Below, piece after piece: positions 4,912-47,678 of a stretch of 48,249 bases of DNA (the stretch's first letter is position 1; every line of letters begins with the position of its first letter). The position numbers were made by a program, and so were the translations under genes. A model generated the notes under the pieces. It saw only the letters and a list, made by a program, of their open reading frames with translations. It was not told the origin of the DNA and did not search any database. Origin of the DNA: Clostridia bacterium (GTDB lineage: Bacteria > Bacillota > Clostridia > Oscillospirales > Acutalibacteraceae); contig JAFVSK010000017.1 in assembly GCA_017503785.1 (NCBI GenBank), positions 1 to 48,249 of the forward strand. Direction: 5' to 3'.

Positions 4912-5197
4912 CCGCCGAAATCCGTGCAATCCAAAATCAGCCCCGTAGGGGCCGATGCCCACATCGGCCCGCCGAAATCTGTGCAACCCAAAGTCAGCCC
5001 TGTAGGGACCGGCCTCCGGACGGTCCGCCGAGGCCCCCTCCCCGAGGGGGCTGTCGCCGCAGGCGACTGGGGGAGTTTCCACCACATTCCCACAATCTCA
5101 AACCAACACCGTAGAGGACGACCTGCGTGTCCTTCCGCCACAATATTCTCACAACCCAAAATCAGCCCCGTAGGGGCCGATGCCCACATCGCCCCGT
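4912..5197. repeat. G+C-rich intergenic repeat cluster, right (inverted) copy
   Basis: This is the reverse-complement counterpart of the cluster at 185-511. The ~217-bp segment 4981-5197 matches 295-511 inverted with only a handful of mismatches (about 97% by eye). An extra palindromic GGGGCCGATG unit sits at about 4949-4971. No gene is supported between the terminator at 4904 and recA. The remainder, 5200-5351, holds the recA control region. Confidence 0.9.
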
Positions 5198-5234
5198 CAA
5201 GGTTTACGACAAGGAAAGGCCACAACAAAAACAA

Positions 5235-12008: not shown

Positions 12009-13583
12009 ATGAAAAAAACAACTGCCATATTGGTAACGCTGCTGTTGATGGTAGGTATGCTGCCGCTGGGTGCTTTCGGTTTTACGGTAAGTGCTGCCAC
12101 CAGCGGTTACTATACCTATACAGTCGCCGATGGAAAAGTTACCATTACCGGCTACGACGAGTCAATTAACGGTGCGATAAGTATTCCAAGCACCGTAGGC
12201 GGCTGTGCCGTAACGGAAATCAGCGAAGTGGCATTTATGGGGTGCAAGGAAATTACAGCGGTAACTATTCCTGCCAGTGTTACCAAAATTGGGATGGGTG
12301 CTTTCTCGGGGTGTGAAAATCTCATGTCCATTTCGGTAGAAGCAGGGAATTCGGTGTATCACAGCGCCGGCAATTGCCTGATTGAAACCGAAAGTAAAAC
12401 GCTGGTTAACGGCTGTAGCTTTAGTGTGATTCCTACTGACGGTAGCGTAACAAAGATTGGCGGAGGCGCTTTTATGGGTTCCAGCCTTTCTTCCCTTACA
12501 TTACCCAGCGGCATAACGTATATCGGTGAAGCGGCTTTTCGGAACTGCTATAGTCTTGCCACAATTTCTCTTCCGAATACGATAAAGACTATCGAAGGCG
12601 GGGGAACGTTTTGGGATTGTGACAGCCTTGTATCAATTACGATTCCCGATGGTGCAGACATTGTCAATTGGTTTATGACATTCTTTGATTGTGATAACCT
12701 TACAACGGTGAAGTTGGGCAACGGAGTAACAAGCATTGGACAAGAAGGGTTTGAAGGGTGCGAGAATCTTACATCGATTACTATTCCGAAAAGTGTGACA
12801 AGTATTGGCACTGTTGCATTTGCCGGTTGTGATGCACTTGCCAATGTGTGGTACGGTGGAAACAATGCAGATAGAGAGGCAATAGATGTTGCTTTTGGCA
12901 ATGATGAATTACTGAACGCCACGTGGCATTACACGGAAGATAGCGTTCCTGCAAAAAGCGGTTGGGCACTGGACGGCGGTAAGTGGTATTTCTACGAAAA
13001 CGGCACGATGGTGAAAAACGCGTGGCGTAAGGATAGTGTCGGCTGGGTATTCCTCGGCAAAGACGGTGCGATGCTCACCAACGCCTGGTGCACCGACAGC
13101 CAAGGCTGGTGCTACGTGGGTGCCAACGGTTATGCCGTAACGAACTGCTGGAAGCGTGACAGCATTGGCTGGATCTGGTTGAACGCGAACGGCAGTATGA
13201 CCAAGAACGCGTGGGTGAAAGACGGCGGCAAGTGGTATTTCCTGAACGCTAACGGCTACATGGTAGCTAACGCGTGGAAAAAGGATAGCAAGGGTTGGGT
13301 CTACCTCGGCTCAAGCGGTGCTATGATGACCAACGCCTGGGTACGCGACAGCGTGGGTTGGTGCTATGTGGGTGCCGACGGTTATGCTGTGACCAACTGC
13401 TGGAAGCGTGACAGCGTGGGCTGGTGCTACTTAAACGGCAACGGCAGCATGACCAAGTCGCAATGGTTGTACGATGGCGGCCAGTGGTATTATCTGGATG
13501 CCAACGGCTACATGGTGACCGGTACGCGCGTGATCGGTGGCAAGACCTACAAGTTCAACGCCAGCGGCGTGTGGATCAGATAA
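12009..13583 (+). CDS. Secreted BspA-type LRR protein with cell-wall-binding repeats
   Basis: A 524-residue exported surface protein. ATG 12009 follows GGAGGGA. Residues 1-31 are a signal peptide (MKKTTAILVTLLLMVGMLPL...VSAA). Residues ~35-310 are LRR_5/BspA-type leucine-rich repeats of about 23 residues (pattern F-x-G/N-C-x-x-L-x-x-I-x-I-P-x-S/T-V-x-x-I). Residues ~318-524 are nine Trp/Gly-rich repeats of 21 residues plus a terminal partial one (AW-x-x-D-S-x-GW-x-Y/F-L-x-x-x-G), like choline/glucan-type cell-wall-binding repeats. Such proteins attach non-covalently to the envelope through the repeats and present the LRR face for adhesion. Base usage is somewhat more A+T-rich in the LRR part than in neighbouring genes, which may indicate separate origin. 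Confidence 0.9.
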   Translation: MKKTTAILVTLLLMVGMLPLGAFGFTVSAATSGYYTYTVADGKVTITGYDESINGAISIPSTVGGCAVTEISEVAFMGCKEITAVTIPASVTKIGMGAFSGCENLMSISVEAGNSVYHSAGNCLIETESKTLVNGCSFSVIPTDGSVTKIGGGAFMGSSLSSLTLPSGITYIGEAAFRNCYSLATISLPNTIKTIEGGGTFWDCDSLVSITIPDGADIVNWFMTFFDCDNLTTVKLGNGVTSIGQEGFEGCENLTSITIPKSVTSIGTVAFAGCDALANVWYGGNNADREAIDVAFGNDELLNATWHYTEDSVPAKSGWALDGGKWYFYENGTMVKNAWRKDSVGWVFLGKDGAMLTNAWCTDSQGWCYVGANGYAVTNCWKRDSIGWIWLNANGSMTKNAWVKDGGKWYFLNANGYMVANAWKKDSKGWVYLGSSGAMMTNAWVRDSVGWCYVGADGYAVTNCWKRDSVGWCYLNGNGSMTKSQWLYDGGQWYYLDANGYMVTGTRVIGGKTYKFNASGVWIR

Positions 13584-39582: not shown

Positions 39583-39865
39583 CCCCGTCAAGGCCCCCCT
39601 CTCCGAGGGGGCTGTCGCCGAAGGCGACTGGGGGAGTTCCCTCGCATTCGCACGAACTCAAGCCAACCCGGTAGCTGTCGCCGAAGGCGACTGGGGGAGT
39701 TCCCTCGCATTCGCACGATCCCAAGCCAACCCGGTAGGGGCCGATGCCCACATCGGCCCGTCAAGGCCCCCTCTCCGAGGGGGCTGTCGCCGAAGGCGAC
39801 TGGGGGAGTTCCCTCACATTCGCACGATCCCAAGCCAACCCGGTAGGGGCCGATGCCCAAAAGGA
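39583..39865. repeat. G+C-rich intergenic repeat cluster (third)
   Basis: Three tandem-like copies of a unit built on GTCGCCGAAGGCGACTGGGG plus TTCCCTC(G/A)CATTCGCACGA and AAGCCAACCCGGTAG (starts near 39611, 39674 and 39786), with palindromic GGGGCCGATGCCC units at about 39736 and 39846. The last copy is cut off inside the palindrome by unrelated sequence that becomes the metF promoter. The units are related to the clusters at 185-511 and 4912-5197. No gene is supported in 39511-39926. Confidence 0.9.
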
Positions 39866-40807: not shown

Positions 40808-41380
40808 ATGGTGTTGGTAAAGCACGTTGAGGAACCGCCGTTTGAAGCCATGAACGCGCTTCGTTATGCCGGTTGCCCCGAGGCCGATGCGGCCACGCTG
40901 GATCTGCTGTATTCCTGTTATGAGGAACTGCGAAGCGGCCTTCGCTATGCCGTGTGCAGCTGTGAATTGCCGCTGACTGTAAAAAACGGCACGTGCGAGC
41001 TTGGTAGCCTTTCGCTGCCGTCGACCGATCTTACAAACTATTTCGGCGATTGCCGTCGCGCGGTGCTGTTCGCCGCCACGGTGGGCGTTGCCCCCGATCG
41101 GTTGATCGAGCGGTACAGCCGTGTTTCGCCGTCGCGGGCGCTGATGCTGCAAGCCATCGGTGCCGAGCGTATTGAAGCTTTGTGCGATGCGTTTTGTGCC
41201 ACGCTGGAGGGTGCACTGCCGTCGCGCTTCAGTCCGGGCTACGGCGATCTGCCGCTGTCTGTGCAGCAGCAGCTTATTCGCGTGCTGGATACCGAACGCA
41301 AAATCGGTGTCTGTTTAAATGAAAGCTTATTAATGTCGCCCACCAAATCGGTTACCGCCTTGGTGGGACTTAAAGGGTGA
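40808..41380 (+). CDS. Stand-alone MetH reactivation-domain protein
   Basis: 190 residues resembling the SAM-binding activation domain normally fused to the C-terminus of cobalamin-dependent methionine synthase. Key segments: EALRYAG-like MNALRYAGCPEAD, VLFAATVGVAPDRLIERYS, AERIEALCDAFCATLE, and the SAM-site SRFSPGYGDLPL with IGVCLNESLLMSPTKSVTALVGL. ATG 40808 is chosen because GGGGTGA, overlapping the metF stop, lies 5 bp upstream; a GTG at 40799 lacks a site. Thermotoga encodes a comparable separate protein. Placed between metF and a MetH that lacks this domain, it very likely supplies reductive remethylation of inactive cob(II)alamin. Confidence 0.92.
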   Translation: MVLVKHVEEPPFEAMNALRYAGCPEADAATLDLLYSCYEELRSGLRYAVCSCELPLTVKNGTCELGSLSLPSTDLTNYFGDCRRAVLFAATVGVAPDRLIERYSRVSPSRALMLQAIGAERIEALCDAFCATLEGALPSRFSPGYGDLPLSVQQQLIRVLDTERKIGVCLNESLLMSPTKSVTALVGLKG

Positions 41381-41385
41381 ACCAC

Positions 41386-43779
41386 ATGAAGTTCTTGGAG
41401 TTTTTACAAAGCAATATCGTCATTCTCGACGGCGCGCTCGGCACGTTGTTGCAAGCGCGCGGCCTGCAGCCGGGCGAATATCCCGAACGGTGGAATCTGT
41501 CGCACCCCGAGGTGCTGGTGGATATCCACCGTCAGTATTACGATGCCGGCAGCAACGTGGTGTGCACCAACACGTTTGGCGCCAATTCGTTAAAATTCGG
41601 GCATGAGGAATTGGAGCAGCTGATCCAAGCTGCTTTAAAGAACGCCCGCACGGCGGCCGAGCAAAGCAGCTCGTCGGCAGAAAAGTTTGTGGCGCTCGAT
41701 ATCGGCCCCACCGGTCGCATGCTGCGGCCCTTGGGCGATCTGGATTTTGAAGAAGCTGTGGCGGTGTTTGCCGAAACGGTGCGCTTGGGTGAAAAGTACG
41801 GTGCCGATCTTATCTTGATCGAAACCATGAATGACAGCTACGAAACCAAAGCAGCGCTGCTGGCGGCTAAGGAAAACAGCTCGCTGCCGGTTTTGGTCAG
41901 TAACGCCTACGGTGACGATGGCAAGCTGATGACAGGCGCCTCGCCGTCGGCTATGGTGGCCATGCTGGAGGGTATGGGTGCCGATGCCCTCGGTGCCAAC
42001 TGCTCGTTGGGCCCGCGCCAGCTGCGCGGCGTTGTGGAAGAACTGCTTCGCGTCGCCTCGGTGCCGGTGCTGCTCAAGCCCAACGCGGGTTTGCCGCGCG
42101 TTGAAAACGGCAACACCGTGTTTGACGTTACGGTAGATGAGTTTGCCGACGAAGTGGCCTCGCTTGCTGCGGCAGGTGTGCGTGCGGTGGGCGGCTGCTG
42201 CGGCACCACCCCTGCATACGTGAAAGCCCTTTCCGCGCGGCTGGCGGGCAGGACCCCCGTGCCGCTTACCGATAAGGCCGTCACAACGGTGTCGTCCTAC
42301 ACCCACACCGTTACCTTTGGCAAAGAACCGCTGCTCATTGGCGAGCGCATTAACCCCACGGGTAAAAAACGGTTTAAGCAAGCGCTTGTCGAGCGTGATA
42401 TGGGCTACCTGCTCAACGAAGGTCTTCGGCAGCAGGAAGCAGGCGTGCACGTTCTGGATGTAAACGTGGGTCTGCCCGAGATCGACGAGGTGGCGATGCT
42501 GCGCGATGCCGTGTGCGAACTGCAGGCTGTTACCGATCTGCCGTTGCAGATCGACACCGCCAACCCGACAGCCATGGAGGCCGCCCTGCGCCGTGTCAAC
42601 GGCAAGGCGCTGGTCAATTCCGTCAGCGGTAAAAAGGAAAGCATGGCAGCGGTGTTTCCGCTGGTAAAAAAATACGGCGGTGTGGTGGTGGCGCTCACGC
42701 TGGACGATGACGGCATTCCCACCACTGCCGAGGAACGCGTGGCCATTGCTCGCCGCATTTTGGACACGGCCGCGCAATACGGCATTGCCAAGAAAAACAT
42801 TATTTTTGACACGCTGGCCATGACCGTCAGCGCCGATGCCGCTGCTGCAGCCGTCACGCTGGAAGCGCTTCGCCGTATTCGGCAGGAGTTGGGCTGCTAC
42901 ACCTCGCTGGGCGTATCTAACGTGTCGTTCGGCTTGCCTGCGCGGGATGCCGTTAACAGCACCTTCTTCACGCTGGCGCTGGCGAGCGGCTTGTCGGCGG
43001 CAATCATGAACCCCTATTCGGTGGATATGCGCAAGGCGTACTACGCCTACCGCGCCTTAAACGGCATGGACACCAATTGTGAGGAATATATCCGTCAGTC
43101 GGCAGGCTTTGCCACGGTAGCCGCTGCCCCCACGGCTGCCACGGCCGTCATCAATGGCCGCAGCGCCTTGCAGGATGCCATTGTGAAAGGTCTGCAGGAA
43201 CAGGCGGGTTCTCTCACGGAAGCGTTGCTGCAAACCGAAGCGCCGCTGGATATTGTCAATAAGGAGATCATTCCCGCGCTCAACGCCGTGGGGGAGGGAT
43301 ACGAAAAGAAAACCGTCTACCTGCCGCAATTGCTCATGAGTGCCGAAGCCGCCAAGCGAGCGTTTGAAAGCATCAAGAAAACCATGACCGCTGCCGAAAA
43401 CACGGTCACCAAAGGTGCGTTCGTGCTGGCAACGGTTCGTGGCGACATTCACGATATTGGTAAAAACATCGTGCGCTTGTTGCTGGAAAACTACGGCTAT
43501 CAGGTAATTGACCTCGGCCGCGACGTACCGCCCGAAGCGGTGGTCGATGCTGTCGAACAGCACCACGCCGCCGTGGTTGGTCTCAGTGCTTTGATGACCA
43601 CCACCGTCCCCGCAATGGAGGAAACCGTCAAGCTGCTGCGCGCACGTACACCGTGGTGCAAGATCATCGTCGGCGGTGCCGTGCTCACGCAGGAATACGC
43701 CGATGCCATCGGCGCCGATCACTACGGCCGCGATGCCATGGAAGCCGTCCGCTATGCCGAAGCAATCATAAAGGCATAA
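41386..43779 (+). CDS. metH: Cobalamin-dependent methionine synthase, short form
   Basis: Transfers a methyl group from methyl-THF to homocysteine through cobalamin. 797 residues from ATG 41386 (GGGTGA 5 bp upstream overlaps the previous stop; a GTG at 41377 is less likely). Domains: homocysteine S-methyltransferase ~1-290 with zinc ligands C206 (NCSLGP) and C271/C272 (GGCCGTTP); pterin-binding ~305-570 (LIGERINPTGKKRFK, HVLDVNVGLPEID); cobalamin cap ~590-670; B12-binding ~675-797 with base-off D-x-H-x-x-G (D687, H689, G692). The C-terminal activation domain is absent and is encoded by the upstream gene. Confidence 0.97.
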   Translation: MKFLEFLQSNIVILDGALGTLLQARGLQPGEYPERWNLSHPEVLVDIHRQYYDAGSNVVCTNTFGANSLKFGHEELEQLIQAALKNARTAAEQSSSSAEKFVALDIGPTGRMLRPLGDLDFEEAVAVFAETVRLGEKYGADLILIETMNDSYETKAALLAAKENSSLPVLVSNAYGDDGKLMTGASPSAMVAMLEGMGADALGANCSLGPRQLRGVVEELLRVASVPVLLKPNAGLPRVENGNTVFDVTVDEFADEVASLAAAGVRAVGGCCGTTPAYVKALSARLAGRTPVPLTDKAVTTVSSYTHTVTFGKEPLLIGERINPTGKKRFKQALVERDMGYLLNEGLRQQEAGVHVLDVNVGLPEIDEVAMLRDAVCELQAVTDLPLQIDTANPTAMEAALRRVNGKALVNSVSGKKESMAAVFPLVKKYGGVVVALTLDDDGIPTTAEERVAIARRILDTAAQYGIAKKNIIFDTLAMTVSADAAAAAVTLEALRRIRQELGCYTSLGVSNVSFGLPARDAVNSTFFTLALASGLSAAIMNPYSVDMRKAYYAYRALNGMDTNCEEYIRQSAGFATVAAAPTAATAVINGRSALQDAIVKGLQEQAGSLTEALLQTEAPLDIVNKEIIPALNAVGEGYEKKTVYLPQLLMSAEAAKRAFESIKKTMTAAENTVTKGAFVLATVRGDIHDIGKNIVRLLLENYGYQVIDLGRDVPPEAVVDAVEQHHAAVVGLSALMTTTVPAMEETVKLLRARTPWCKIIVGGAVLTQEYADAIGADHYGRDAMEAVRYAEAIIKA

Positions 43780-43815
43780 AAAACTCCCTGTGGTTGTTAC
43801 CACAGGGAGTTTTTG
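43778..43815. terminator. Bidirectional terminator between metH and the minus-strand murC operon
   Basis: AAAAACTCCCTGTGG pairs perfectly with CCACAGGGAGTTTTT around a 6-nt loop. It has A- and T-runs on both sides, suiting both converging transcripts. Confidence 0.93.
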
Positions 43816-43818
43816 TTT

Positions 43819-44715
43819 TTATAAACAGTCGTTTAACAGCAGATTGCCCACGTGAGCCCCCAGCGTAAACGCCGCCGCATTGCTGGAGGGCAGCATCATT
43901 GCGTACAACGCCTCACGTACAGTCAGCGTGTCGCCTGCCTTGAGATCGCCCACATAAAAGCCGCTTGGCTGAATGGCGTCCAACACGTCCTGACGGATCG
44001 TCAGCACGTCGTCGAGATCGTTCACCTGCTCTGCCACGATCGCCGCCGTGAGCATTTTGGTCATAGAGGCCGGCCGCAGCTGCTCGCCCGCGTTCTTTTC
44101 GTACAAAATGTCTAACGTGGCATGATATTCACTGCCCGCCAACGGCGGTACCACACACACGATCGCGCTTTGCGCACACACCTCGGCTTTTGTGTTGTCC
44201 ATCGAGCGGTTGCGATATTTGGCAACCGCCGCATCCAACGCCTCGCGCGCAGCTTGATAGCGATTGCGCGGCTTGTCTGTGCCCTCGTCTGCCCCCATGA
44301 TGGTGCAGGCGAGCAGCACGTCGCTGTCGGGCATCCGCACGATCACCGACAGATTATTCATGTTGTACCGTGTCAGCTGTCCGGTCTTGCCACCGATAAC
44401 CTCGTAATGCTCCGTGAGCAGGGGAGAGGCAGCATCCTCCAGCACGGTTGAGTGCAATGCCCATTCTCGCGGCTGCTTGCCGCCCAGTGCCACCGTGTAA
44501 TGGGGCGTGCCCCACACGGCGCGCAGTGCCTCACATTCATTGCCGCGAATAAGACAGCGCAGCATATCTCGTGCTGTCGATACGTTGTCGATCCCGCACG
44601 GATCGCGGAACAGGGTGTTGTTCGACAACCCCAGCTCCTCAGCCTTCACTTCCATGTACTCGCAGAACACACTCAAGCAGTCCTGCACAGGAAATTCCAA
44701 TACGTCCTTTTTCAC
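43819..44715 (-). CDS. Circularly permuted S11-type (DacA-like) serine DD-peptidase homologue
   Basis: 298 residues. The GTG start at 44715 is fixed by AAGGGG overlapping the murC stop, 13 bp away. All S11 motifs are present but in rotated order. Residues ~11-50 hold what normally follows the SxN helix (FCEYMEVKAEELGLSNNT, CGID, STARDM); GGKTGQ is at 108-113 (KTG 110-112). After the usual C-terminal RYQAAREALDAAVAKY comes a fresh N-terminal half: LDILYEKNAGEQLRPASMTK with S217 and K220 (SxxK), then MLPSSNAAAF with S277/N279 (SxN). It ends GNLLLNDCL. The join matches a continuous canonical fold cut between the SxN helix and the next helix. No signal peptide, PBP5 C-domain or anchor is seen, so location and activity are uncertain. 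It would cut D-Ala-D-Ala ends or do related acyl chemistry if active. Confidence 0.85.
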   Translation of the reverse strand: MKKDVLEFPVQDCLSVFCEYMEVKAEELGLSNNTLFRDPCGIDNVSTARDMLRCLIRGNECEALRAVWGTPHYTVALGGKQPREWALHSTVLEDAASPLLTEHYEVIGGKTGQLTRYNMNNLSVIVRMPDSDVLLACTIMGADEGTDKPRNRYQAAREALDAAVAKYRNRSMDNTKAEVCAQSAIVCVVPPLAGSEYHATLDILYEKNAGEQLRPASMTKMLTAAIVAEQVNDLDDVLTIRQDVLDAIQPSGFYVGDLKAGDTLTVREALYAMMLPSSNAAAFTLGAHVGNLLLNDCL

Positions 44716-44728
44716 TGTTGTTATCCCC

Positions 44729-46099
44729 TTATTGCTTCAGCAGATCGCGGATCATCCGCGCGCACTTATACACGTCGCCACCGCCCATGGTGATCACCAG
44801 ATCCCCTTCGCGCGCGTTGGCAGCCACAAAACGGCTGATTTCCTCAAAGGTGGCCAGATAATGCGCTCCGTCGATCTGATCGGTGATCTGCTGCGACGAC
44901 ACGTTCCACTCATTTGTTTCGCGAGAACCCATAATATCGCTCACGACCACCTCGTCGGCCACCGACAGCGCTTGAGCAAACTCGTTCAAGTGCCGTGCCG
45001 TGCGTGAAAACGTAAACGGCTGGAAAACCGCCCACACGCGCTCATACGGCATCGCCTGTGCCGTACTCAGCGTGGCACGGATCTCGGTGGGATGATGCGC
45101 GTAATCGTCCACAATGGTCACACCGGCGAAGGTTCCCAAAAACTCAAATCGCCGTCCGGCTCCGCAAAACGCTGCCAAACCGGCAGTAATCTCCTCCATG
45201 GTCGCACCGCACAGATGCGCCACCGCTGCCGCGCCCAGCGAATTCAGTACGTTGTGCTTCCCCGGCACACCCAAGCGAATGTGTGCCGCTTTCTCGCCGT
45301 TGTGATATAAATCGTAGCAACCGTAAGCGCCGTCAAATTCGCCCACGTTGCGGGCTTGCCACTCGCAACTGCCGTCAAATCCGTAGCGAATGATCGGCAC
45401 GTGCGTGAGCCCCTCCACCGCGATCAGCGTTTCGGGGTCCTCGGCATTTACCACCAACGCACGCGTGGTCTGCTTGGCAAACTTACGGAACGAGGCGATC
45501 ACGCCCTCCAGTGAACCGAAATAATCCAAATGATCGGCATCCACGTTCAGAATGAGCGAGATTGCCGGCTCCATTTCCAAATAATGATCCTGAAACTCGC
45601 ACGCCTCGCAAACAAACACGTCCGACTCACCGGCGCGGCCGTTGGCATCGATCAGCGGTAACCGACCGCCGATAAACACCGACGGATCGTGTCCGCCCTG
45701 CAGCAGGATTTGCGATACCATGGACGACGTGGTGGTTTTTCCGTGCGTACCTGCCACCGCCACCGTCGATGCAAAACTGCGTGAGAGCAACCCCAAAAGC
45801 TTGGCACGCTCCATCAGCGGGATCCCGCGGTCGGCAGCGGCCACCAGTTCGGGATTATCGGCCCGCACCGCGGCGGTATATACCACCAGCTCCGCGTCAC
45901 CCACGTTTTCGGCGGCCTGCGGCATCATCACGGTGATGCCCAACCGCCGCATCCGCGCGAGGTTGTCCGACTCATTCACGTCCGAACCGGTAACGGTAAA
46001 GCCCTGCGAATGTAATATTTCGGCCAACGGGCTCATTCCCGAGCCGCCGATCCCCACAAAATGTACCCGATGAATATTCGGGAGAAAGGTGTTCAACAT
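44729..46099 (-). CDS. murC: UDP-N-acetylmuramate-L-alanine ligase
   Basis: Adds L-Ala to UDP-MurNAc, the first amino-acid step of the peptidoglycan stem peptide, in the cytosol with ATP. 456 residues from ATG 46099, preceded by GGAGGGG; a TTG five codons upstream lies on that ribosome site and is rejected. Motifs: GIGGSGM (16-22, UDP binding), GTHGKTTT (117-124, ATP loop), NVDADHLDYFG, and DDYAHHPTEIRATL in the C-terminal domain. Full length. First gene of a minus-strand unit with the S11 homologue. Confidence 0.97.
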   Translation of the reverse strand: MLNTFLPNIHRVHFVGIGGSGMSPLAEILHSQGFTVTGSDVNESDNLARMRRLGITVMMPQAAENVGDAELVVYTAAVRADNPELVAAADRGIPLMERAKLLGLLSRSFASTVAVAGTHGKTTTSSMVSQILLQGGHDPSVFIGGRLPLIDANGRAGESDVFVCEACEFQDHYLEMEPAISLILNVDADHLDYFGSLEGVIASFRKFAKQTTRALVVNAEDPETLIAVEGLTHVPIIRYGFDGSCEWQARNVGEFDGAYGCYDLYHNGEKAAHIRLGVPGKHNVLNSLGAAAVAHLCGATMEEITAGLAAFCGAGRRFEFLGTFAGVTIVDDYAHHPTEIRATLSTAQAMPYERVWAVFQPFTFSRTARHLNEFAQALSVADEVVVSDIMGSRETNEWNVSSQQITDQIDGAHYLATFEEISRFVAANAREGDLVITMGGGDVYKCARMIRDLLKQ

Positions 46100-46121
46100 A
46101 CGGTTCCCCTCCAATAAGGCT

Positions 46122-46127
46122 ATTATA
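46122..46127 (-). promoter_or_regulatory. murC promoter -10
   Basis: On the minus strand a perfect TATAAT lies about 23 bp before the murC ATG. The -35 candidate (TTTATT, 17 bp upstream) is weak. Confidence 0.6.
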
Positions 46128-46199
46128 TTGCTTCGCGCTCCAAAAATAAACCCCTTTTTAAAATTTTATAAAATCTTTTCAATTGTATGCGATTACCTG

Positions 46200-46228
46200 T
46201 TGAAGTTCGGCGCAGAATTTGTTATAAT
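46200..46228 (+). promoter_or_regulatory. miaB promoter
   Basis: TTGAAG (46200-46205), 17 bp, perfect TATAAT (46223-46228); about 35 nt leader. Confidence 0.85.
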
Positions 46229-46268
46229 TAATCTAATTATCGGAATCATCTTGGAAAGGGACTTTTGT

Positions 46269-47678
46269 ATGGCCAAAACCCGCGTTATCACTCCGGAGGA
46301 GCTGGAACAGCAAGAGCCGTTTAAAGAACAGCTTCGTCGGTTTTACGAACAACGTCAGCCGGGCGTTGCCCCGCTGGCATATATACGCACCTACGGTTGT
46401 CAGCAAAACGTTGCCGATTCCGAACGCATGAAGGGTCAGCTGGCCCAGATCGGCTTCGGCTTCACCGACAAGCCTGAAGAAGCCGACTTTATTTTGTTCA
46501 ACACCTGCGCCGTGCGCGAGCACGCCGAAGACCGCGTGTTCGGCAACGTGGGTGCGCTCAAGGCGCTCAAGCGCCGCCGCCCCGAAATCCTGATTGCGCT
46601 GTGCGGCTGTATGGTGCAGCAGGAGCACATTGCCAAAAAGCTCTATCAAAGCTATCCGTTCGTTGGCTTGGTGTTCGGCACGCACGTGCAGCACCGTCTG
46701 CCCGAGTTGATGGTGCGCACATTGGTGGAACGCCGCCGCGTGGTCGAGATCCCCGAATGTGACGGCGTTATCACCGAAGGTATTCCCGCCGAGCGCGACG
46801 GCACGTTTAAAGCCTTTTTGCCCATCATGTACGGTTGCAACAATTTTTGCACCTATTGCATCGTTCCGTACGTGCGCGGGCGCGAGCGCAGCCGCGACCC
46901 CGAGTTCATCATAGCCGAAGCCAAGGAGCTGGTGCGGCAGGGCTACCGCGAGATCACGCTGCTGGGGCAAAACGTCAATTCCTATGGCAAGGGCGAAGCA
47001 CACGGCGTAGATTTCCCGGAGCTTCTTAAGCGCCTAAACGCCATCCCGGGCGACTTTTTAATTCGCTTTATGACCTCACACCCCAAGGATGCCACCCCCC
47101 GTCTGTTCGATACCATCGCCGCGTGCGAAAAGGTGTCGCGGCATTTCCATTTGCCGTTCCAGTCGGGCAGCAGTCGGGTACTTCGGGAGATGAATCGCGG
47201 CTACACGCGTGAGCAATATCTCGAGCTCATCCGCTACGCCCGTAAGGCTGTCCCGGGCATCGCCTTCACCAGCGACGTTATCGTGGGCTTCCCCGGCGAG
47301 CAGCGCGAGGATTTTGAGGAAACGCTGTCCCTCATTCGTGAGGTTGGGTTCGTATCGCTGTTCACGTTCATCTATTCCCCGCGCGAGGGAACGCCGGCAG
47401 CAAAAATGCCCGACCCCATCACGGCCGAAGAAAAAACCGCGTGGTTCCAAGAACTCACGGCGCTGCAGGAAAGCTTGTCGGCCGAGCGGCTGCAAAAGCT
47501 GGTGGGTACCGAGCAGCGGGCGCTCTTAGAAACCGATGCCGGCGACTATTTGGAGGCTCGTTTGGCCGAAAACAGCGTTGTCCGTGTGCAGGGCGACCCT
47601 GCGCGTATCGGCGAGTATGTCACCGTGCGTATCACAAGCGCACGCAGTTATATTGTTACCGGTGATATTGTAGACTAA
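46269..47678 (+). CDS. miaB: tRNA-2-methylthio-N6-dimethylallyladenosine synthase MiaB
   Basis: A radical-SAM enzyme that methylthiolates i6A37 of tRNAs reading UNN codons. 469 residues from ATG 46269, preceded by GGAAAGGGA; in-frame sequence upstream includes the promoter and is not coding. UPF0004 cluster cysteines: C44 (TYGCQQN), C80 (NTCAVRE) and C114 (CGCMVQ). Radical-SAM C190/C194/C197 (CNNFCTYC). IVPYVRGRERSR and GQNVNSYG are typical of MiaB, as is the C-terminal TRAM domain. Upstream of a YlbF-family gene, as miaB (ymcB) is next to ymcA in Bacillus. Confidence 0.97.
   Translation: MAKTRVITPEELEQQEPFKEQLRRFYEQRQPGVAPLAYIRTYGCQQNVADSERMKGQLAQIGFGFTDKPEEADFILFNTCAVREHAEDRVFGNVGALKALKRRRPEILIALCGCMVQQEHIAKKLYQSYPFVGLVFGTHVQHRLPELMVRTLVERRRVVEIPECDGVITEGIPAERDGTFKAFLPIMYGCNNFCTYCIVPYVRGRERSRDPEFIIAEAKELVRQGYREITLLGQNVNSYGKGEAHGVDFPELLKRLNAIPGDFLIRFMTSHPKDATPRLFDTIAACEKVSRHFHLPFQSGSSRVLREMNRGYTREQYLELIRYARKAVPGIAFTSDVIVGFPGEQREDFEETLSLIREVGFVSLFTFIYSPREGTPAAKMPDPITAEEKTAWFQELTALQESLSAERLQKLVGTEQRALLETDAGDYLEARLAENSVVRVQGDPARIGEYVTVRITSARSYIVTGDIVD

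Follow-up and report, generated by a model that had tools for sequence, protein, structure and literature searches.

A probable natural circular permutant of the peptidase S11 domain encoded behind murC in a Clostridia bacterium

The DNA analysed here, which we call the window, is a stretch of 48,249 nucleotides from a 2.06-Mb metagenome assembly in 64 contigs. In the window, a gene for a predicted SxxK acyl-serine protein lies between murC and a convergent metH-like gene, the latter named by sequence reading. The features of the locus are as follows.

41377-43779, + strand: metH-like gene, convergent with the permuted gene; also the neighbor of murC in the congeneric genome G007
43779-43814, no strand assigned: terminator-like hairpin of 16 pairs that separates the permuted gene from metH and has T runs on both strands
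43819-44715, - strand: gene of the circularly permuted S11 protein (SxxK acyl-serine type; 298 aa, with GTG as start codon), without signal peptide
43846-44121, - strand: second segment, residues 199-290, corresponding to the N-terminal part of canonical S11 from the SxxK helix to the SxN helix
43879-43887, - strand: SxN motif (SSN), residues 277-279
44056-44067, - strand: SxxK motif (SMTK), residues 217-220
44170-44673, - strand: first segment, residues 15-182, corresponding to the C-terminal part of canonical S11
44380-44388, - strand: KTG motif, residues 110-112
44725-44731, - strand: ribosome-binding site (AGGGG) over the murC stop codon TAA, read directly
44729-46114, - strand: murC (461 aa), ending 13 nt before the start of the permuted gene

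The open frame of the gene comprises 305 aa and is bounded by an in-frame stop upstream. The original prediction had argued that the start is fixed by a ribosome site overlapping the murC stop, and both the GTG start and the site were as it described: the sequence TAAGGGGATAACAACAGTG places the ribosome site against that stop codon (44729-44731). The motifs of the 298-aa protein are arranged in the order helix/STARD, K110-T-G, S217-x-x-K220, and S277-x-N279, and the first segment holds the FxxxMNxKAxxLG-type helix, STARD, KTG, and the C-terminal strands and helix. The original prediction had named loss of conservation of S217, K220, S277, and KTG as evidence against itself. In an alignment of permuted proteins, KTG, the Ser and Lys of SxxK, and the Ser and Asn of SxN were invariant in 11 of 11 rows, and SxxK, SxN, and K-T/S-G were kept in 16 of the 17 permuted members known in total, the free-standing ones included, and lost in one. 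The absence of a signal peptide was also borne out by hydropathy. The maximum 15-residue Kyte-Doolittle mean within the first 45 residues of the window protein was 0.96, compared with values of at least 1.6 before SxxK in all 121 canonical S11 ORFs. More broadly, the export signal or membrane segment that precedes SxxK in Peptidase S11 (PF00768) was absent by this measure from all free-standing permuted proteins (hydrophobic N-terminal stretch in 0/8 versus 121/121), of which two are near copies and one, L091, was read from an internal ATG.

Both parts of the protein were recognized by S11 profiles, in crossed order. Pfam Peptidase_S11 (PF00768) matched the window protein in two stretches with an E-value of 1.9e-19 and 70.5 bits, against a curated cut-off of 27.6. 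With a canonical profile of 131 ORFs, made before cleaning of the set, residues 15-182 corresponded to profile positions 152-312 and residues 199-290 to positions 57-148. Crossed two-stretch matches with a common seam were obtained for all 15 permuted proteins (15/15), the first stretch starting at position 150-154 (158 in L091) and the second ending at 145-151. Two members found later were crossed alike, the first stretch of the degenerate L239 starting earlier, at position 118. In a phmmer comparison with solved S11 structures, residues 199-290 aligned with residues 17-109 of the Streptomyces K15 enzyme (1es4_A; 1.2e-8), and residues 17-80 aligned with 121-186 of the same chain at an i-Evalue of 370, which alone is far below significance.

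For the trees and for a rotation scan, rows were aligned to the 131-ORF profile, and 60 cleaned canonical rows were used in the scan and in the later trees. Taken out of the canonical rows were the full-length L171 ORF, three spurious ORFs, L107, L170, L172, L173, L174, L064, L065, and L057; L107 is canonical, yet it is absent from the cleaned set. Rotation raised the score of the window protein from 103.1 bits to 137.8 bits at a sole peak located at the seam, and the mean over the 15 permuted proteins from 77.7 to 122.5 bits. In a control with 200 shuffles of the protein, 131 scored at all against the rotated profile, none of them above 7.2 bits, versus 137.6 bits for the real protein. Because crossed matches were found in 15/15 proteins and the rotated profile fitted best, the window protein is a permuted relative and not a canonical S11 member, and these sequence comparisons support its being a natural circular permutant of the S11 domain. 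The permuted motif order with all three motifs kept, the core of the original prediction, was corroborated in this way by homologues, crossed profile matches, the rotation scan, and the single-clade tree described below. Structure prediction, proposed earlier as a check, gave a confident AlphaFold2 model (pLDDT 89.5, pTM 0.90) in agreement with the permutation; its comparison with known structures covered the first half alone, the second half being barely tested. We infer that the permuted protein would fold like S11 enzymes.

Distant permuted relatives with 24-36% identity occur in Staphylococcus phages and plasmids, in prophage tail proteins, and in a giant Erysipelotrichaceae protein. By tblastn, collinear homologues were present in two of 19 matching phage records, those of the Staphylococcus phages ZCSS1 and UHP46, and in five of 12 matching plasmid records, all from Staphylococcus; being collinear with the query, they are therefore equally permuted. 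These genes, annotated merely as 'serine hydrolase', align over 93-97% of the query at 24-29% identity, and the phage copies, unlike the window protein, are fused to a tail-fibre N-terminus. Among the best 80 loci listed in a scan of species genomes, full-length permuted matches were present in an Erysipelotrichaceae genome, Bacillus sp. HF117_J1_D, Vagococcus vulneris, S. simulans, and S. microti, among others. Scans of IMG/VR contributed L171 and two near-identical sequences, L173 and L174, and also retrieved the prophages of Bacillus and Vagococcus as viral contigs; viral-contig scans with the queries A1, P0008, and the ZCSS1 domain gave no match. Within the staphylococcal family, a search with the permuted profile detected a member in seven of 108 genomes, in one case as a split or partial copy. 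In the remaining groups the counts are lower bounds, since scoring covered about 6 to 9 candidates per genome: at least 1/272 genomes in the family of the Erysipelotrichaceae genome, at least 1/391 in the class of the window (the window genome itself), at least 1/387 in the order of the Bacillus genome, and at least 3/395 in the order of the Vagococcus genome. The window protein is therefore not unique but one of a scattered family of permuted proteins, phage tail modules among them.

The family appears in two guises. In phages and prophages, the permuted domain is carried at the C-terminus of tail or tail-like proteins. The ZCSS1 tail protein (439 aa) joins a tail-fibre N-terminus to it. The other such proteins measure 488 aa in a Bacillus prophage (L064), 842 aa in a Vagococcus prophage, 743 aa in an IMG/VR phage, where collagen-like repeats are present, 515 aa in a metagenomic phage, and 506 aa in a Staphylococcaceae prophage. 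Except for ZCSS1, the neighboring tail, holin, and amidase genes were recognized by reading of ORFs. In the Erysipelotrichaceae genome (L063 6001-6804; G342:C207), the domain lies within a 5,899-aa open frame, of which 4,268 aa were scanned and contained SASA and GDSL esterases, leucine-rich repeats, DUF4886, and the permuted S11 domain. As a free-standing gene, the domain is found in the window and in G007, in several staphylococci and plasmids of theirs, and, with 311 aa, in one genome of the Vagococcus order. One permuted member, L239 5131-6570, lacks the SxxK Ser and the KTG Lys and carries an N-terminal extension; judged from its sequence, it may be a binding-only derivative. In Staphylococcus plasmids and S. 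borealis, the permuted gene is convergent to a Mur ligase family gene (L060 6127-7857, L068 1000-3054, and L059 6121-8172), and a 538-aa gene comes next in L060 and L068, annotated in L060 as poly(glycerol-phosphate) alpha-glucosyltransferase.

A whole-genome search found the full-length permuted gene in two of the nine genomes of the genus, several others being incomplete: the window genome and G007 (Clostridia bacterium RGIG9064, from water deer rectum). The G007 homologue shares 63% identity by BLAST (61% by alignment) and occupies a different locus, where it is preceded by a terminator-like hairpin and by the hexamers TTGACA and TACAGT, which by eye resemble a promoter. The order miaB/murC/metH is shared by G007, but there no gene separates murC from metH; the stop codons of these two are 35 bp apart with a hairpin between them. 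The surroundings of murC were read in eight congeners, several contigs of which end nearby, and in L202 an antisense ORF masked murC in the ORF listing. The coupling to murC claimed at the outset thus stands for the window genome, where the gap is 13 nt, but not for G007, whose copy is not beside murC. With just 2/9 genomes of the genus carrying a full-length gene and the G007 copy away from murC, a conserved murC linkage was not supported. For the permuted pair of the window and G007, NG86 estimates were dN 0.33 and dS 2.29, and those for murC of both genomes were 0.13 and 1.95; on these codon comparisons the permuted gene is evidently under purifying selection, dS being saturated. The source assembly also contains a 3,322-base contig (G000:C16, L034) that repeats window 43767-47088 at 99.97% identity with one mismatch and is redundant rather than a second gene; redundancy of this kind may make up part of the 6% contamination estimate.

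Since the assembly is metagenomic, is split into 64 contigs, and includes a redundant contig with the same gene, the halves of a normal S11 gene could in principle have been joined in the wrong order. Permuted homologues, however, come from named isolates, from records of phages and plasmids, from contigs of IMG/VR, and from a second assembled genome of the genus, in which the locus differs, and the window gene has its own ribosome site and terminator-like hairpin. We consider an assembly or binning artefact to have a negligible chance of being correct, and assembly error as the source of the permuted order was ruled out by the independent permuted homologues. Unrooted trees on canonical-order columns with 60 canonical S11 rows placed the permuted proteins in one clade at 100/100, both for the original 15 of 15 and for 17 of 17 with the two later members. 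Each half alone also gave one permuted clade (SH-aLRT 92 and 99 in the two half trees), which makes a chimera of two S11 lineages unlikely. The permuted clade grouped with four canonical rows at 97/86, so that the permutation is derived unless the root falls inside that group; within the clade, the window protein and its G007 homologue joined the domain of the giant protein at moderate support (95/79). The seam lies in a loop that probably tolerates a cut, and the hosts of the family are scattered and distant from one another, as would be expected if several independent permutations had occurred at one structurally favored loop. The single clade at 100/100 among the 60 canonical rows, with both halves agreeing, argues against this, as does the fact that these rows include S11 paralogues from the same Bacillus, Vagococcus, Staphylococcaceae, and Erysipelotrichaceae genomes, and we regard repeated permutation as very improbable. 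These trees support a single origin of the permutation among S11 proteins. Circular permutants usually arise by duplication and fusion followed by loss of the outer halves. The window protein has DCL at both termini, encoded by different codons (GACTGCTTG and GACTGTTTA), which could plausibly be a retained overlap from duplication, three residues being weak evidence. No tandem ORF with two full S11 domains was present among 121 canonical ORFs, so no duplication intermediate was found; the proposed origin by duplication and truncation at both ends is accordingly plausible in its overlap and lacks an intermediate among those ORFs.

By sequence, the chain of the window protein opens in the stretch that links the helix after SxN to the FxxxMNxKAxxLG helix, and the former C-terminal part continues into the former N-terminal part, so that the motif order is KTG-SxxK-SxN with all three present. 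S11 chemistry is likely because both halves and the catalytic residues are conserved. Ser217, activated by Lys220 in a site that also comprises Ser277/Asn279 and Lys110, would attack a D-Ala amide or ester; the enzyme would be acylated at Ser217 and hydrolyze D-Ala-terminated or D-Ala-ester substrates. For the domain in tail and surface proteins, the context points to wall peptide or D-alanylated teichoic acid as the probable substrate. The window gene presumably came to stand behind murC and to be co-transcribed with it, and its product would be made in the cytoplasm and stay there unless lysis releases it. Taken jointly, a natural S11 permutant of single origin, in two guises, with S11-like fold and chemistry and a cytoplasmic product behind murC is the reading that we favor, at a probability of about 0.85.

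Two other views of the function were weighed. The missing export signal and the proximity of murC at 13 nt, together with a Mur ligase family gene next to the permuted gene in two staphylococcal plasmids and S. borealis, could point to a cytosolic carboxypeptidase working with MurC that trims UDP-MurNAc-pentapeptide or recycled peptides. Against such a role stand the congener without murC linkage, the convergent orientation of the staphylococcal Mur ligase genes, an S. simulans plasmid copy without a Mur ligase gene in its annotated neighborhood, and the cost of precursor trimming to the cell, and we consider it unlikely. Similarly, the tail-fibre context and the loss of both catalytic residues in L239 would suit a binding protein or pseudoenzyme, a receptor-binding tail part whose permuted fold recognizes D-Ala-ended wall polymers with no need for catalysis. 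This too seems improbable to about the same degree, since all three motifs are intact in 16/17 members, free-standing ones included. Beyond the favored reading of an S11 permutant of single origin, it is conceivable, though we hold it doubtful, that one permutation within S11 gave a mobile module for phages and giant surface proteins directed against D-Ala-bearing wall polymers, and that this module repeatedly escaped as leaderless genes, to our knowledge the first cytoplasmic acyl-serine DD-peptidase-type enzymes.

Penicillin-binding proteins, of which S11 represents the low-molecular-weight kind, are among the most studied enzyme families. The window protein resembles Peptidase family S11 (PF00768; DacA/PBP5, the Streptomyces K15 DD-transpeptidase, and B. 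subtilis DacB) in SxxK, SxN, KTG, and the similarity of both halves, and it groups among S11 proteins in the tree. It is unlike canonical S11 in its order KTG-SxxK-SxN, in having its termini in the helical part, and in the absence of a signal peptide. Class A beta-lactamases and S11 belong to the same superfamily, and PF13354 (Beta-lactamase2) matched window residues 207-292 at 7.9e-8. The NCBIfam class A beta-lactamase model gave 20.6 bits, below its cut-off of 200, and no NCBIfam model matched the window protein at its own cut-off. In line with the earlier remark that no natural permuted member of the family was known to have been described, no description of a natural permuted S11 enzyme, or of a tail-fused one, was found in the open-licence papers searched. 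Two of these papers describe natural permutants of enzyme folds with scattered distribution, namely cpRAS GTPases (PMC2430557) and the cpCone clade (PMC12419801), on folds unrelated to S11, and PMC2408556 concerns GFP permutants. A permuted clade of apparently single origin, spanning phage tails and leaderless genes, tests the tolerance of the fold for new termini and adds an enzymatic tail module now annotated as 'serine hydrolase', and the leaderless genes raise the question of whether an acyl-serine DD-peptidase is able to work in the cytoplasm.

Elsewhere in the window, three predicted proteins of giant size (2576, 1511, and 1962 aa) are encoded within positions 16073-37497; all contain Big_2 repeats, and two also gave CBM_4_9 or GH16-like matches. 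Positions 12009-13580 encode a protein that combines leucine-rich repeats with choline-binding repeats. Near the left end, positions 294-508 and 4984-5198 form an inverted repeat pair of 215 bases at 97% identity, and a cluster of short, near-identical direct repeats occupies 39584-39859.
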